Of a stretch of 45,833 bases of DNA, positions 39,927 to 45,833 are shown piece by piece. The stretch spans positions 1 through 45,833 of the forward strand of contig MPMU01000009.1 in the NCBI GenBank assembly GCA_002238665.1, in the 5' to 3' direction. A model generated the notes under the pieces. The model did not search any database. It saw nothing but the letters and a program-made list of their open reading frames with translations, and was not told where the DNA came from. The DNA comes from Gammaproteobacteria bacterium bin55 (GTDB lineage Bacteria; Pseudomonadota; Gammaproteobacteria; Pseudomonadales; Azotimanducaceae). Position numbers and translations under genes: made by a program. Position 1 is the stretch's first letter. Every line of letters starts with the position of its first letter.

Positions 39927-40421
39927 ATGGACGCTCTAACCTACGTCACCAACGAAATGCTCGAAGCAAAAGGTGTTTGGGTTTCCGGCCAAACCTCATA
40001 TCCAATCACGGAAACCGACATCCGAAGATGGGCTATGGCAACTTATTATCCTAAGAAACCTCCTCGTATTTACTGGGATGCTGAGTTTGCCAAAGGAACT
40101 CGCTGGGGAGACATAATTGCGCCACCTGATTTCAACCCCTTCGCCTGGAGTTTGGAAGCGCCAAGAGGAACTCCCAGACCCGGTCTAGTCGGACGAAAAC
40201 CTGATGGCAAACCTATGACTGGCATGAATGGTGGACAAACTGATCGCTACGGTGTCCCGATGCGCCCAGGGGACGTAATCACCGCCAGATCCAGATTATT
40301 AGATTGGCACGAAAAAGAAGGCCGCCTTGGGCTCACTCTATACGTACGATCGGAAATTGAGTGGAAGAATCAAAAACAAGAGTTGGTCCGAACCCGGATT
40401 TCAACAAGCATACGCTACTAG
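39927..40421 (+). CDS. MaoC N-terminal-type (FAS1-like) dehydratase subunit
   Basis: 164 residues with the FAS1-like / MaoC_dehydrat_N hot-dog pattern: TYPITETDIRRWAMATYY-like block (SYPITETDIRRWAMATYY here), RWGDIIAPPDFNPFAW, GMNGGQTDRYGVPMRPGDVI and RLGLTLYVRSEIEWKNQ. This domain normally lacks the catalytic Asp-His pair and works with the second hot-dog subunit, encoded eight bases downstream. Together they would form a heteromeric enoyl- or hydroxyacyl-CoA dehydratase. Complete, and divergent from the SDR. Confidence 0.82.
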   Translation: MDALTYVTNEMLEAKGVWVSGQTSYPITETDIRRWAMATYYPKKPPRIYWDAEFAKGTRWGDIIAPPDFNPFAWSLEAPRGTPRPGLVGRKPDGKPMTGMNGGQTDRYGVPMRPGDVITARSRLLDWHEKEGRLGLTLYVRSEIEWKNQKQELVRTRISTSIRY

Positions 40422-40429
40422 GAGAACTT

Positions 40430-40846
40430 ATGGCAGTTACTGCTAAGGATGTAAGAGTTGGAACAACGCTACCAGAATGGTCGCGAAAAACCAGCTTCGC
40501 GGAGTGGAATAGGTATGCTGCCGTAAACGAGGAATTTGTGCCATTCCACATGGACGATGAAGCTGGTCGTCGAGCAGGGAACGACGAAGGCGCGTTCGGA
40601 ATGGGAAATCTTCGTTACGCGTACATCGTCAATGCTCTACACGATTGGATAGGAGACGAAGGTGTCGTGCGAGAAGTAGGTTGCCAATATCGTGCCATCA
40701 ATCAGAAGGACGATGTGCTCACAGTCGTTGGTGAAGTGACCGAGCGAAGCGAAGAGGATGGAAGGACTGTCGTTACTCTTAGAGTCAATGTCCTCAATAC
40801 AAAGGGACAGCCTACTTGTCCGGGACACGCCGTTGTTGAACTCTAG
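40430..40846 (+). CDS. MaoC-like dehydratase, catalytic hot-dog subunit
   Basis: 138 residues from the ATG at 40430, which has a GGAG site six bases upstream; a longer reading from 40361 overlaps the previous gene and is less likely. The motif NRYAAVNEEFVPFHMDDEAGR is the hot-dog helix carrying the catalytic His-x-Asp, and FGMGNLRYAYIVNALHDW follows. It pairs with the preceding gene. The last ~100 bases recur, damaged, at 45117-45207 beyond the accessory island. Confidence 0.82.
   Translation: MAVTAKDVRVGTTLPEWSRKTSFAEWNRYAAVNEEFVPFHMDDEAGRRAGNDEGAFGMGNLRYAYIVNALHDWIGDEGVVREVGCQYRAINQKDDVLTVVGEVTERSEEDGRTVVTLRVNVLNTKGQPTCPGHAVVEL
40787..40843 (+). repeat. Duplicated maoC 3' segment, copy A (inside the intact gene)
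   Basis: 57 bases that match 45135-45191 at 54 positions in the same orientation. Similarity continues more weakly to about 40858. This copy is part of the intact gene's final codons. Confidence 0.85.
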
Positions 40847-41155
40847 TCCATCCTAGGATGAATCATCTTTCCTGCTACAGGAGTAGAGGTTTGAGTTCCC
40901 TATAGATTCTCAGTGATAGAGTTAGATTGACCTAGTCTCCATTTGTGACCTCACCAACCACTGTAGCTCGAAGGTCATCATTGCTTGGTTTTCTTTATGA
41001 CATAATCCTTGTTTCACAAACAAGCCCAGAAGTTCAGCCGAAGACCACAAAGACTACGTATCTTTGTCACCAGTTAACATGCCTCAACGAAGTCAATCGA
41101 GCATAGAAAGAAGCAAATACTCTTTAGGTAGAAACCAGAAGTAATGGAACTTTTT
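40847..41155. other. Intergenic stretch between maoC and the accessory island
   Basis: 309 bases with no supported gene. A small palindrome CTTGTTT-CAC-AAACAAG lies at 41108-41124, in the tail of the convergent ATPase gene's downstream region. The composition turns more AT-rich toward the island. No attachment site or tRNA seen. Confidence 0.4.
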
Positions 41156-43549
41156 TCAATCATCATCCATTGCGGCGACTGCAAACGGATTGACGATTTC
41201 TGGGATAGTCTTTGCAACGGATAGCACAACCGTCGCAGCGCCTCGCGCACTCAGCTTACGAATGTCGTCTTTATAGTCCATAAAGCTATTCTTCTTAGTG
41301 TTGTCGAGGCTCTCATATGCATGTTCAAATCCCATCATGAGAACCAACATACCCAATCGAAACTGTTCAGTTATAGCCTTTTTCTTTATAGAATCTTGCT
41401 CGACCCGAAGGAATCGTTGTAGATGAACGTTGTCGTAATTAATGTAGTAGATCACCCCTTCATTCAAATCAGTGATGTAACCACCGTCTAGTGCATTGAA
41501 ACCATCTGGCCATTTCTTAGTTTCCATATCCTCAATTCGTCGACCGTCTTCGGTTATCCACATATTCTTTGGAAGAGACTTATCATCAATGTCCTTAGGC
41601 GTCTTGGGTTTAGGCGGGCCGGGTGGTGGGCCCGGAGGTGTGGTTTGACGATCTGTCACGACTTCAAGAAGAAAGCTGGCACTAACCTCTTGTGGCATTG
41701 AGTTGTCGAATAGATGCACCAATATATCGAGTCTGTCATGCACTCTGACCTTATCAGGTACTACAGTGAAATTTACTGTTAGTCTTCCATTTTTCAACGT
41801 AGAAGACCATGATAATTTGCCATCCAGTCCATCGATGAAGACCTCTCCACGATTGTCTGCGCGGACAAGGTAATCATTGACAACATCAGTATCGAAAGAC
41901 ACCACTCGACGGCCCTCAATTGAGATTTTTGCACCCTCTTCTCTCATCTTTTTACCTCGTATCTCCAAAAACGAGGGGCTATATTTGCCAATCCATGGTT
42001 TTTCATCTGGAATTTTTGGCTTAGAAATTGAAATCTGCTCCCCACCAGGTAGCAATTGAGCGATACTAGGATCTTTTCTCACCATACTTTGGAATAAGTG
42101 AATGGGTTGCTTCTGAATGACATTTCTTGTTTCTTCTTCAGCTACTCGTAGTTGAAGTTCCTTCAAGGACTGGGAATCACTGATGACATCAGTGATCTTT
42201 GAGAGGTAGCGCTGGCCAAATTCAGTTCGCCTGATGTTCTCCCGGTCACCTTTCCACACTTCGTTGTGCGCTTCTTCAGTTAAATCGCTGGCATCCACAA
42301 TTAATACCAAAAGATCCTTCAATACAGGTAACTTGCAAGTCTGAGATAGGAAGCCGCGAGTCTGTTTGTACTGCACCTGACCGTTTACGCTGTGATAAAC
42401 CCTCTGAGTCTTTTGTTTAAGCCATCGTGGCATTCCTTTCATAAAGATCATCGCGTTAATCCTTACGGTTCCTAACAGGGGGTCATCTATATTTCCTATG
42501 TGTTCTAATTTACCAGATTCAACTGTTCCATCTTCCAACATGTCTAGACCACTCTCCCCCTCGTTCCGAAGTGAGAACTCCAATCCATTTAGAGGTTTTT
42601 CATCTATTCCGAGTGCTCTTCTTTTACCCTTCTTTCGTTCGGGCTTAACACGGTAATCAATAAATTTGATAGGTAAAATAGTAGATATCAAGTTTTCATT
42701 GAGTGAGTCTCTGATTTTACTAAATGTAGCGTTTGATTCCATATGATATTGATATAGCTTGATCACTGTACCTGTATTTAGGCTAACAAGCTCGTCTTTG
42801 GTTCCATTTTGCATTTTCAAGGGAAATAGATTTTCTTCCTTGAATGTGGGAATTTTCTTCATATACGTGAAATACTCTGCTACAGGTTTTCCTTCGTTAG
42901 GTCTTCGACGCATCAATGTCCATCCCCAATCACCTGTGTGGTCCCACCTCCTAGAGACTATTAACTTATACCAACAACGACCACAATATGACATAACTCC
43001 TGATGATCCCATATTGTATTTACCCTGTACAAATTTGATGTCAGACTTGTTGCCTGCACTTAATGAAAGAAAGGTGTCTTTGAAGTTATGGGCATGTTGA
43101 CCTTCTCCATTGTCCACAAATGTGAAGCAGAGTGCATCCGATCTTTTAGTACCACCTGTCACTCCGATTATTAGGTTCCTCTCGGCAAACTCCTTCAGGT
43201 ATTTCGGGTCATCTACTTCTGCCAATATGCCATTTCTAGCACCATTTAGTTGAACTAGATCCTTTACAGCTTCAATCATGGATGTCGGGGCATTTGGCCC
43301 TCTTGGGTTTATATCTCGTTCCCAAGCATGTTTCAATAACACTGCGTCAACCATGTTCGTGCATAGTTCAGTGAGAGCTTTGCTACCGACTGAGGCTTGG
43401 TTGGTTATTACGTTGAAATTCGAATCACGATCATCCACTGGAAACCAATTTTGTGTATCAGACAGCGCTTTGTCTCCATGGATAATTTCTGTAACCTCAA
43501 TCTCTGACTCTGAATAAATCAATCTACTACAGACGGATTTGCTATCCAT
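41156..43549 (-). CDS. GHKL (MutL/MORC/Hsp90-like) ATPase linked to a DNA methyltransferase
   Basis: 797 residues with a GHKL ATP-binding domain: N-box KALTELCTNMVDAVLLKH (E61, N65, D68), motif FVDNGEGQH (D146, G148, G150), lid/G2 region FVQGKYNMGSSGVMSYCG (176-190) and a later TGTVIKLYQY. A proline-rich linker (PPGPPPGPPKPKTP) at about residues 635-650 separates an immunoglobulin-like-sounding beta region from a C-terminal helical part. The ATG shares a base with the methyltransferase stop (TAATG) and its GAGGAG ribosome site lies in that gene, so the two evolved as an operon. MutL/MORC-type ATPases beside C5-methyltransferases are known as components of restriction-modification systems. AT-richer than its surroundings; likely acquired. 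Exact function not established. Confidence 0.78.
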   Translation of the reverse strand: MDSKSVCSRLIYSESEIEVTEIIHGDKALSDTQNWFPVDDRDSNFNVITNQASVGSKALTELCTNMVDAVLLKHAWERDINPRGPNAPTSMIEAVKDLVQLNGARNGILAEVDDPKYLKEFAERNLIIGVTGGTKRSDALCFTFVDNGEGQHAHNFKDTFLSLSAGNKSDIKFVQGKYNMGSSGVMSYCGRCWYKLIVSRRWDHTGDWGWTLMRRRPNEGKPVAEYFTYMKKIPTFKEENLFPLKMQNGTKDELVSLNTGTVIKLYQYHMESNATFSKIRDSLNENLISTILPIKFIDYRVKPERKKGKRRALGIDEKPLNGLEFSLRNEGESGLDMLEDGTVESGKLEHIGNIDDPLLGTVRINAMIFMKGMPRWLKQKTQRVYHSVNGQVQYKQTRGFLSQTCKLPVLKDLLVLIVDASDLTEEAHNEVWKGDRENIRRTEFGQRYLSKITDVISDSQSLKELQLRVAEEETRNVIQKQPIHLFQSMVRKDPSIAQLLPGGEQISISKPKIPDEKPWIGKYSPSFLEIRGKKMREEGAKISIEGRRVVSFDTDVVNDYLVRADNRGEVFIDGLDGKLSWSSTLKNGRLTVNFTVVPDKVRVHDRLDILVHLFDNSMPQEVSASFLLEVVTDRQTTPPGPPPGPPKPKTPKDIDDKSLPKNMWITEDGRRIEDMETKKWPDGFNALDGGYITDLNEGVIYYINYDNVHLQRFLRVEQDSIKKKAITEQFRLGMLVLMMGFEHAYESLDNTKKNSFMDYKDDIRKLSARGAATVVLSVAKTIPEIVNPFAVAAMDDD

Positions 43550-43830
43550 TAGAACTCCTCACGATATTGGTTTTCCCTTTGATTAGGTTTACCTTTACTC
43601 CATATATTCATTGATCTAGATGCCAAGTATTTGATGAGTTTTGGAGGTACTGCATTTCCAGTCATATTGACCAGTGCACCCATTCCTTCACCGTGAAACA
43701 CGTACTCTCGGCTGAACAACTGAATGGTTGCACCCTCTTGTGAACTCACGCCTCGAACTTGAGAATAATCAAAATGAACGAATCTCCCGTTAGATACGTT
43801 GAGGAACTTAGTGCTAATTGTCGGTGAAGG
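43549..43830 (-). pseudogene. C5-cytosine DNA methyltransferase, C-terminal remnant
   Basis: About 93 codons open from a stop at 43831-43833. The peptide reads NGRFVHFDYSQVRGVSSQEG, ATIQLFSREYVFHG and then MTGNAVPPKLIKYLASR. This aligns with the end of C5-methyltransferases: the R-G-x-S-x-x-E-x-A-x-x-Q-x-F segment (motif IX region) and motif X (GNAVPP). The catalytic PCQ and ENV motifs are absent upstream, where a 5' region with no recognisable methyltransferase sequence and then transposase fragments begin. The gene is therefore truncated and cannot methylate. A GTG at 43749 could still start a short peptide that feeds ribosomes into the ATPase gene. Confidence 0.75.
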
Positions 43831-44064
43831 TTACCTTGGCTACATACGAGTGTAAGTATCTCCAAATCCAGACATTCCACGCCTCGAAAGCCTTCGGTGA
43901 CATCGTAAAGATAAACCTCCAAATTTAGAACTCGATATAAAGGCATTCGATACGCCAGGGGAAGAGTGCGAAGACGAAGTTGATTGCCTGTTGATAAGTG
44001 TCGGCACATATGTAGTCTTGTATCGATTTTCGCGACACTTTCCGGATTCAAGAATAATGTCAGA
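43831..44064. other. Unassigned stretch between methyltransferase remnant and IS3 fragment
   Basis: 234 bases that probably contain the breakpoint between methyltransferase and insertion sequence. A 124-codon open frame crosses it on the minus strand (43746-44120) but shows no recognisable family and runs antisense into the transposase, so I do not call it. No clear terminal inverted repeat found. Confidence 0.3.
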
Positions 44065-44330
44065 TTGAAGAGAAAACAATATAGCGAAGACTTCCGAGCA
44101 ACGGTGCTTAGTGAAGCCAAAAACGAGCTACGGTCCGTGCGCTCCGTCAGGGAGCGTTACGGTATCAGTGCACTGTCGATCTATAAATGGCTTCGTCAGT
44201 ACGAGCCGATGGCTCAGTTCACCAAGGTATATTAGAACGTAAGGTGAGACTCCAAGCGAAACGCATTGAGCTCTTGGAGCAGAATTTAGCGTTCATGGAA
44301 AATGCCACGATCTGGTTTGTTCAATACACT
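44065..44330 (+). pseudogene. IS3-family transposase OrfA fragment (frameshifted)
   Basis: From a TTG at 44065 the frame reads LKRKQYSEDFRATVLSEAKN then the helix-turn-helix VRERYGISALSIYKWLRQYE and stops at 44235. The rest of OrfA, ERKVRLQAKRIELLEQNLAF, the leucine-zipper-like end, is in another frame that overlaps from about 44237. One frameshift therefore separates the DNA-binding and coiled-coil parts. Confidence 0.72.
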
Positions 44331-44456
44331 CTGGACTCAGTGAGTTGGCCAGCCTGTAAAAAGACAATCAAGATGAGAATCGGTGAGGCCGAAAACCCGC
44401 TACATGATCGTGACGGAATGGGCTTAGGTGTGACCTCCTCACTAGGAAGTACATCT

Positions 44457-44803
44457 ATGCCAGGCAAACACATTACCGATCAACAAGTGAGACTTTACAT
44501 GCAGTGCAGACAAAAAAGGCCGCCGTAAAGGCTGGCTTCTATAGCGCCACAGCCTATAGGATCGAGACCGATCCTAGACCTCCCTCCATCCGGACGAAGC
44601 CACGGGCCGACGCCGGCCCGATCCGCTGGCGGGAATCTTCAATGAGGAACTCGTTACCTTGCTGAAGGAGACACTGAGCATTCGCGCAGAAGCGCTGTTC
44701 GAGGAACTCATGCGAGAGATGAAGATGCAGGGTAGTCCAACGCGTCGGAAGACGAGTACCACGATCTCAGATGCGAATGCATGGCATAGCGAATTCCATT
44801 TAT
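44457..44803 (+). pseudogene. IS21-family transposase IstA fragment (multiple frameshifts)
   Basis: Begins at an ATG with AGGAAG upstream: MPGKHITDQQVRLYMQCRQ, the IstA N-terminus. It continues in a second frame as KAAVKAGFYSATAYRIETDP (the helix-turn-helix), then in a third as RRPDPLAGIFNEELVTLL and RAEALFEELMREM. The catalytic integrase core and IstB are missing. Confidence 0.72.
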
Positions 44804-44825
44804 TTCGTGCGTTTGTCCCTATGCT

Positions 44826-45116
44826 TCAGATCAAAATTAATACAGCGATGCGACCCAAATACGTATGAACTGCGGAGTGGTTTATCTAGAGGCCTACCAG
44901 GATGCCTATACCCTGCGAGTTCCTGACTGGAGTGTGGGAACGCGCATGCCAGCTGACCTATTCATTACCGCATTGAAATCAGATATCCAGCGTGGCTACT
45001 CGGACAAAGGGCGGACTGTTCACTCGGACCATGGTACCCAATACACGTCCCAAGAGTTTTGAGCTACCAGGGCAGAACACCGATTTGAGCAATCGATGGG
45101 TCAAGAGGGAAGTTGC
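44826..45116 (+). pseudogene. IS3-family transposase OrfB (integrase core) fragment
   Basis: The clear part from 44865 reads VVYLEAYQDAYTLRVPDWSV, then MPADLFITALKSDIQRGYSD, then VHSDHGTQYTSQEF, matching the rve catalytic core around the second aspartate (HSDxGxQYTS). An in-frame TGA follows at 45060, after which the frame continues ATRAEHRFEQSMGQEGSC, equivalent to the QSMSRxGNCWDN motif. The match ends there and maoC-like sequence takes over. Confidence 0.75.
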
Positions 45117-45207
45117 GTCGTAATCCTTAAAGTAAATGTCCTCAATACAAAGGGGTAGTCTACTTGTCCGGGACACGCCGTTGTTGAACTCCAGGTCATC
45201 CTATGAC
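45117..45207 (+). pseudogene. Damaged second copy of the maoC 3' end, fused to transposase sequence
   Basis: In the frame continuing from the transposase fragment: VVILKVNVLNTKG, a TAG stop, then STCPGHAVVEL. The intact gene at 40430-40846 ends VVTLRVNVLNTKGQPTCPGHAVVEL. The normal stop is lost (CTCCAG for CTCTAG). The first part of the gene is absent, so this is a remnant of a paralogue or of a duplication at the island's edge. Confidence 0.8.
45135..45191 (+). repeat. Duplicated maoC 3' segment, copy B
   Basis: Direct repeat of 40787-40843, differing at three of 57 positions, one of which turns CAG into a TAG stop. Together the copies flank the ~4.3-kb accessory island. Confidence 0.85.
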
Positions 45208-45280
45208 GATTTGGGTTTGGGACGTAGATACCTTAGTTTTTGCTAACGCAGAAGCAAGAGCTTTAAAGTTACGCAAGTTC

Positions 45281-45833
45281 TCAGTCAATGCACACTGGAG
45301 AAACCAAGTCTCCATTTCGAATCGGAGATTGATCGACAGCCTGTTCATAGCGTTTCCGTGTTATGTTAATGACCGCCTCGGTATATTCTGGTTTGTTCGC
45401 CACTACGAAATGATCAATCGTGAAAGGCGCAAGCCTCTTCTTATCTTCTGACGCACTCACTCGTTCAATCGTCACTAAGTAATTAGTAGCTTGAACATAT
45501 ACGTGTTTCAACGCCATGGCCTCGTGAGCCGCTTGCTTCCATCTATCACGAGCCTTAGTCTTACAAGAAATCGAAACAGGATGAGTCTCGTGGAATAGAA
45601 ACCAATCAAAAGTAGACAGTGGTACATGACGTACTTCAGCTTGATAGTACATACGCTCTACACCATTTTGAGCCAATGTCTCGCCAACCACATACTCAAA
45701 AAACCTACCATGAACAGATCTATCTGGCAAATTCTTCTGAGATTCGTACGCCGTCATCATCACTTCTACGAATTCATGAGGCAAAAGTTTCCTGTCATCT
45801 AGTAAATCAATGATTTCCAGATAAATGTTCCTA
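45281..45833 (-). CDS. Probable type II-like restriction endonuclease (N-terminus beyond the window)
   Basis: The frame is open from the window edge, so the start lies outside; 184 codons are visible, ending at 45281. A TTG at 45784 is possible but the upstream residues (LEIIDLLDDRKLLPHEF) look natural, so a longer protein is favoured. The core resembles PD-(D/E)xK nucleases: an early helix with HGRFFEYVVGETL, then TFDWFLFHE (Asp) and PVSISCKTKARDRWKQAA, the S-x-K-T-x-x-R-x-R-x-K-Q pattern seen in restriction endonucleases. A serine takes the place of the usual glutamate. Its strand and position suggest it belonged to the same cassette as the methyltransferase remnant and GHKL ATPase. Confidence 0.58.
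   Translation of the reverse strand, partial: RNIYLEIIDLLDDRKLLPHEFVEVMMTAYESQKNLPDRSVHGRFFEYVVGETLAQNGVERMYYQAEVRHVPLSTFDWFLFHETHPVSISCKTKARDRWKQAAHEAMALKHVYVQATNYLVTIERVSASEDKKRLAPFTIDHFVVANKPEYTEAVINITRKRYEQAVDQSPIRNGDLVSPVCID

Follow-up and report, generated by a model that had tools for sequence, protein, structure and literature searches.

The minus strand of positions 41156-45833 in a 45,833-nt contig of Gammaproteobacteria bacterium bin55 (assembly GCA_002238665.1, contig MPMU01000009.1, here C19; the whole contig is called the window) carries a GHKL-family ATPase, the relic of a C5-cytosine methyltransferase (C5-methylase) and a restriction-like nuclease. Judged from its sequence, the 797-residue ATPase is intact and belongs to a widespread GHKL family that is still unnamed and uncharacterised. 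As displayed by the comparison of 94 loci, the type of DNA-marking enzyme beside the ATPase follows the groups of the ATPase tree. An earlier note on this DNA had recognised all three features on one strand, as confirmed here, and had read them as one restriction-modification (R-M) cassette; that single cassette is unsupported, whereas a methylase-ATPase pair is supported. The assembly comprises 2.93 Mb in 183 contigs and is 87.8% complete; the window terminates within the nuclease gene. The GC content is 41-44% over 41-44 kb and 44-50% in the remainder of the window.

Motifs and fold of the ATPase

The ATPase open reading frame (ORF; 41156-43549, minus strand) has no internal stop. Three motifs on the same strand were compared in 37 sequences of the family: the N-box ExxxNxxD (43346-43369), in which E61, N65 and D68 are invariant; DNGEG (D146-G150, 43100-43114), with D146, G148 and G150 invariant; and FVQGKYNMGS (F173-S182, 43004-43033), with F173, V174, Q175, G176, K177, M180 and G181 invariant. 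N-box, DxGxG and glycine-rich motifs on a Bergerat fold define the GHKL ATPase superfamily, and all of them are found here. Pfam HATPase_c_3 was matched by 8 of the 37 members at E <= 0.01, the window protein reaching E 0.77. No solved structure was found by sequence for the ATPase or its profile.

The AlphaFold2 (AF2) model built from the 37 sequences (pLDDT 80.9, pTM 0.64) predicts, in order, the ATPase region, a mixed alpha/beta part, a beta-rich part (about residues 540-631), a low-confidence proline-rich linker (636-657; 41579-41644, minus strand) and C-terminal helices (708-785), so that the linker and helical domain described earlier are both present. Foldseek against the PDB returned topoisomerase VI-B, Hsp90, the MutL 40-kDa fragment and DNA-bound MORC2 at E 1e-9 to 2e-6. 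The earlier note had made its assignment depend on whether the GHKL motifs align with the fold, and they do. Alignments to MutL 40-kDa fragments, considered for an S5-type transducer domain after the ATPase domain, are long (TMt up to 0.50).

Several related classes were compared. The MORC motif GhXhhpXXRhl of the S5 domain occurs in 0 of 94 members, and the pattern also fails in all 5 comparison sequences, so that it lacks a positive control. No conserved residues of the C-terminal RE-fold nuclease of paraMORC3/Shedu (E-D-ExK) and no Pfam match to it were found, and neither the C-terminal TIR domain of paraMORC4 nor the second, C-terminal HATPase_c kinase domain of HEF_HK is among the Pfam families listed for 37 members. 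No PADLOC Mza model (MzaB, MzaC) matched the 37 members, and the single PADLOC hit among them was to PDC-S06 (one member, E 5e-4); the BbrUII/HgiDII model NF050001 matched none of 4 members scanned. Among the papers listed by a literature search for MzaB and MzaC, the titles pointed to unrelated medical subjects. Profile comparison with other GHKL groups by hhalign was weak (BbrUII-like 48%, HEF_HK 52%, MzaB-like 4%).

Marking enzymes across the ATPase family

Relatives were collected from genome contigs with a profile of 9 sequences and one peptide pattern. The best 80 of 397 relatives by similarity, together with six IMG/VR records, seven plasmid records, the window and the genomes G010 and G011, gave 96 loci, or 94 after duplicates (L014, L015); a broken copy in G060 and loci L155 and L156 also stand outside this count. 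Partners were defined as blastp clusters within 9 kb, whose representatives were named by Pfam, PADLOC or NCBIfam. Since loci were selected by similarity, the partner counts are not frequencies. Ssp phosphorothioation genes were found near the ATPase in 36 of the 94 loci (by one Ssp gene each in L089 and L053), a C5-methylase in 27 (the window by its relic; L019 scored so though an amino-methylase-like gene also lies 7 kb away), an N4/N6 amino-methyltransferase in 9 and a D12 adenine methyltransferase in 2 (L044 and L103, labelled by eye and then confirmed by Pfam). C5 genes lie less than 1 kb from the ATPase in 26 of 28 cases. The expectation that ATPase homologues occur beside methyltransferases is thus borne out by the C5 loci, and the pairing of the same family with phosphorothioation and amino-methylase genes goes beyond the earlier note.

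The tree of 94 rows was made by a quick method, with SH-aLRT supports only and without an inferred root. One group of 27 rows, including the window, holds 25 C5 rows and 2 without a recognised partner (support 100), and within it the window groups with L017, L018 and L019 (support 97). Three haloarchaeal rows form a group of their own, with 2 C5 rows and 1 without partner. The amino-methylase group of 15 rows (support 99) contains 9 amino-methylase rows, 1 D12 row and 5 without partner, and a group of 44 rows (support 100) contains all 36 Ssp rows, 7 without partner and 1 D12 row; five more rows have no recognised partner. Over the labelled rows, the partner label changes 4 times on the tree. 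With all five labels 17 changes are needed, against 48.4 with shuffled labels, and none of 200 shuffles was as low. Moreover, distances between ATPases correlate with those between partners (r 0.90 for C5 in 24 loci, 0.77 for SspC in 32 and 0.76 for SspD in 33; 0 of 5000 shuffles in each case), to which shared host descent may contribute. It is thereby shown that partner type follows the groups of the ATPase tree.

Members of the family were drawn from many phyla, and the closest relative of the window ATPase is 51% identical. In G010 and G011, of the same genus as the window, the ATPase is preceded on one strand by SspC, SspD (and SspB in G011) and a DndB-like gene. In a sample of genomes drawn without ranking by similarity, the members in G540 and G684 both stand beside an amino-methylase and a conserved small protein. 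Among 398 Pseudomonadota genomes, 3 carry the family (E <= 1e-10), namely that of the window and two with the ATPase beside amino-methylases. No member was found in phage records. A conserved protein of about 75 residues lies directly upstream of the ATPase (from 151 nt overlap to a 75 nt gap) in 18 of the 96 loci, of which 14 are C5, 1 is Ssp and 3 have no recognised partner; the copy in L029, the only one scanned, gave no Pfam or NCBIfam match.

Some single loci are also recorded. The protein of about 75 residues occurs in L155 (9246-9515) and L156 (7476-7739) as well. On an IMG/VR contig, L103:5220-10424, a D12 methylase, a short ORF, a DndB-like gene and an ATPase family member follow consecutively, and L105:8001-10421 is a member on a 597-kb IMG/VR contig with no recognised marking gene. 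MzaC-like (L030) and MzaB-like (L032) genes, far below the model cut-offs, lie near a C5-methylase and the ATPase. In G060, of the same taxonomic family as the window, contig C2 (L016, about 48093-51459) carries an ATPase relative in three open frames, probably a decaying copy.

The ruined methylase, the intact ATPase frame and the nuclease

The C5-methylase before the ATPase is a pseudogene truncated by a decayed IS3-like element. The ATPase ORF begins at an overlapping TAATG, where a methylase-tail ORF of 66 residues (43549-43749, minus strand) stops; the stop-start coupling that had been noticed is therefore real. This tail matches Pfam DNA_methylase with 24.4 bits (cut-off 22; E 2.4e-5). 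The whole relic covers about 137 C-terminal codons (43549-43959, minus strand), its frame being interrupted by one TAG and one TAA. Against 15 methylases adjoining ATPase relatives, about 43582-43959 aligns with their last 115-135 residues, the best matches being those of L018 and L019 (52% over 122 residues, 43594-43959, E about 1e-38). A weak candidate for a further piece lies on the same strand in a different frame at 43962-44042 (tblastn E 0.054), and no trace was found of the N-terminal part of the methylase, about 270 residues. Decayed IS3-like DNA, roughly 44015-45114 on the plus strand, separates the relic from the nuclease, its limits being set by partial copies elsewhere in the genome. 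Families found in it are HTH_Tnp_1 (43984-44235, E 1.9e-6) and rve (44865-45062, E 3e-8). Its comparison with the own genome gave 23 matches: 1 to itself, 1 to a repeat at 40769-40861 and 21 to pieces 68-96% identical. The loss of most of the methylase to IS decay, as first read, holds for both the insertion and the loss, given the relic match and the two stops.

A direct repeat of 105 bp (83% identical) encloses the ATPase, the relic and the IS, with the nuclease outside. Copy 1 (40757-40861, plus strand) is the 3' end of a MaoC-like ORF (40361-40846; MaoC_dehydratas E 5e-4, under the Pfam cut-off) plus 15 nt beyond it. Copy 2 (45105-45209, plus strand) is an orphan copy of this 3' end with an in-frame stop; it had been considered as an IS end, which was rejected once it was recognised as the MaoC-like copy. 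The sequence arrangement resembles the scar of an element integrated at the 3' end of a gene; an IS-driven duplication is possible too.

Because the methylase is destroyed, the window locus is not a working R-M pair; the intact methylase that belongs to a type II R-M system is missing from it. The genome holds four other C5-methylase ORFs without stops, the closest being 38% identical to the relic over 94 residues. A further short C5-methylase fragment of the same genome (G000) lies on contig C24:43040-43249 (L143).

The ATPase itself retains 66 of 68 columns conserved in at least 90% of 36 relatives, other members ranging from 61 of 70 to all. Had the ATPase gathered stops at the rate of the relic, its 797 codons should contain about 12 of them (P about 1e-5), or 17 with the weak frameshifted piece counted as a third lesion (P 3e-8); none is seen. 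This figure presumes that ATPase and relic began decaying together, which weakens it as support for a retained ATPase. It is therefore probable that the ATPase outlasted the methylase as a maintained gene, or ceased to be maintained only shortly before the methylase was lost; this copy could be either an orphan or a recent relic. That it is mere dead weight, yet to gather stops, is a serious possibility that we nevertheless find rather doubtful. Its partner is destroyed, the genome is rich in partial IS copies, and the best relative, at 51%, is too distant for a selection test; 797 codons without stop or frameshift and the conserved positions retained argue the other way.

The nuclease ORF (45281-45832, minus strand; the feature runs to 45833) is open at the contig end, so that 183 residues are read and its 5' end lies past the contig. 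Matches to EcoRII-C, BsaWI and PspGI are weak and all below cut-off. A tblastn search of plasmids gave three homologues. On the Desemzia and Bacillus plasmids the nuclease gene overlaps the end of a C5-methylase of 317-318 residues, which resembles the two ATPase-linked methylases compared with it at just 24-27% over parts. On the Priestia plasmid a Vsr gene lies near the nuclease and no methylase is found in the stretch shown, for which the gene table is incomplete. The restriction-like character proposed earlier for the nuclease is upheld by the two methylase-overlapping plasmid relatives together with the weak matches. A structure model from one sequence (pLDDT 38.5) was set aside.

The first reading joined nuclease, methylase and ATPase into one R-M operon later broken by the IS. 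Shared strand and order agree with it, and the available parts of two papers describe EcoRII-like nucleases in some MORC operons (PMC2292703) and list EcoRII-C near Response_reg_2 genes (PMC8011034). Such an operon is nevertheless very unlikely. A profile of four nucleases matched only the window among ORFs of at least 50 residues in the 96 ATPase loci (flank lengths vary), and no homologue was found in 273 other genomes of the window's class. Thus, of the methylase-GHKL-nuclease operons for which a neighbourhood survey had been proposed, the methylase-ATPase pairs were found and the nuclease was in none of the 95 other loci. On two of its three plasmids the nuclease has another methylase partner, and in the window it lies outside the direct repeat, the IS flank on its side being the repeat and no recognisable methylase. 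In IMG/VR two pattern matches to the nuclease were obtained, neither a relative, and no relative was found in phage records. The sequence comparisons therefore suggest that the nuclease probably belongs to a type II R-M system of its own and is no part of the methylase-ATPase pair.

A proposed clamp-like ATPase with exchangeable marks

We consider it somewhat probable that these ATPases are DNA clamps which act as the restriction or effector component alongside a marking enzyme of interchangeable type, and that the window copy was orphaned by methylase loss. MORC2 has been reported as a DNA clamp (PMC12216690, available parts). The ATPase would dimerise on ATP and close on DNA like MORC2, MutL and topoisomerase VI-B; the partner's mark on self DNA would hold it off, and on unmarked DNA it would trap or remodel the DNA or recruit a nuclease. 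The clamp would be common and the mark swappable among 5-methylcytosine, amino-methylation and phosphorothioate. The partner in the window group is a C5-methylase, which in the present genome was ruined by an IS3-like element together with a deletion, the ATPase surviving so far as an orphan.

Several observations weigh against this reading. No biochemistry or phage assay was found for the family, and TM-scores of the whole model are low, 0.16-0.28 by query length among the first 40 matches. A nuclease motif is not evident, the acidic positions conserved in at least 95% being only 61, 68, 146, 149, 298, 437, 555 and 706. The loci were obtained through one peptide pattern and similarity ranking; 20 of the 94 have no recognised partner, several of them at contig ends. 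Between the ATPase and the Ssp genes there are often 1-6 kb with other genes in them, and the distances of ATPase and amino-methylase correlate weakly (r 0.33, 9 loci; 153 of 5000 shuffles). In the 398 Pseudomonadota genomes SspD occurs in 14 (E <= 1e-20), and it coincides with the ATPase solely in the genome of the window, on separate contigs; therefore, Ssp systems in this sample manage without the ATPase.

The ATPase might instead be non-restricting, aiding or regulating the marking enzyme, or silencing DNA that is marked or foreign, in the manner of eukaryotic MORC proteins. The missing nuclease motif and the place of MORC2 among the nearest folds fit such a role, as does the L019 pair, which has no other recognised defence-type gene (neighbours not profile-scanned). 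We hold this role unlikely in view of the company that GHKL proteins keep. HEF_HK, Mza-like, DUF262 and SIR2 genes are among those that accompany the family. On contig C141 of the window's genome (L159), a C5-methylase precedes a GHKL ATPase from a different family, which matches restriction-enzyme models, NCBIfam BbrUII/HgiDII at E 4e-148 (495 bits against a cut-off of 550, on a cut piece of 499 residues) and PADLOC REase_II at E 4e-81. Two further loci of this genome combine a mark with a GHKL protein. C75 (L158) carries a C5-methylase, a HEF_HK-like GHKL gene and a further ORF that by its position is a putative response regulator; C152 (L157) carries an SspABCD-like operon together with genes for an MzaB-like GHKL ATPase and a DndB-like protein. 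Small genes in the C75, C141 and C152 loci are putative GIY-YIG genes. No SspBCD genes are present beside the window ATPase, the SspABCD of the genome being that on C152.

The clamp reading may be set beside known systems, the cited papers being drawn on in their available parts. Comparative genomics has tied MORC-like ATPases to R-M (PMC2292703), in agreement with the earlier statement that GHKL ATPases were proposed as restriction components. The paraMORC families of Iyer, Abhiman and Aravind 2008, paraMORC1 above all, share the N-terminal GHKL motifs, appear similar in having a C-terminal extension, and likewise occur near methylases, Vsr and further GHKL proteins; a BbrUII-like GHKL cluster in L020, L026, L032 and L096 (only L026 scanned) fits the paraMORC1 context. 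The phosphorothioation partners of the present family are not mentioned in those parts of PMC2292703. BbrUII/HgiDII restriction enzymes (NF050001) likewise place a GHKL ATPase beside a C5-methylase, as on C141, but the window protein has no NCBIfam match and the profile match is of 48% probability. In HEF_HK/Response_reg_2 systems (PMC8011034) a GHKL protein lies near a C5-methylase and Vsr, and HEF_HK-like genes occur within 9 kb of the family in L018 and 5 Ssp loci; the L018 protein, however, has a second, kinase-type HATPase_c that is absent from the window ATPase. SspABCD systems, with SspE and SspFGH as effectors (PMC8092258), share the Ssp genes found near 36 of the 94 members, whereas the window group pairs with a C5-methylase and the Ssp operon of its own genome carries an MzaB-like GHKL. 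CxC/DndE systems (PMC10853773), in which a cytosine methylase replaces phosphorothioation, resemble the idea of a swappable mark on a fixed core, but that core is an ABC ATPase with DndE and not a GHKL ATPase. Shedu VcSduA/paraMORC3 (PMC12137116) also uses a GHKL ATPase in defence, with a fused PD-(D/E)xK nuclease of which none is evident in the window ATPase. Among the open-licence papers listed in literature searches, none was found that connects a GHKL ATPase with Ssp genes. Within the available parts, GHKL, MORC and HATPase are absent as terms from PMC10853773 and PMC12839542, GHKL from PMC8092258, and phosphorothioate, DUF4007 and Dnd from PMC8011034.

In a broader form, which is more tentative and falls short of probable, the GHKL family would be a mark-agnostic restriction engine, a clamp-like ATPase coupled group by group to C5 methylation, N4/N6 methylation and backbone phosphorothioation, partly with the partner of about 75 residues, and able to persist without its marking enzyme. 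To our knowledge, how MORC-like ATPases discriminate marked from unmarked DNA is an open question in bacteria and eukaryotes alike. One family that works with chemically unrelated marks would separate the reading of the mark from the action on DNA, and the loci of this ATPase family are small and testable.

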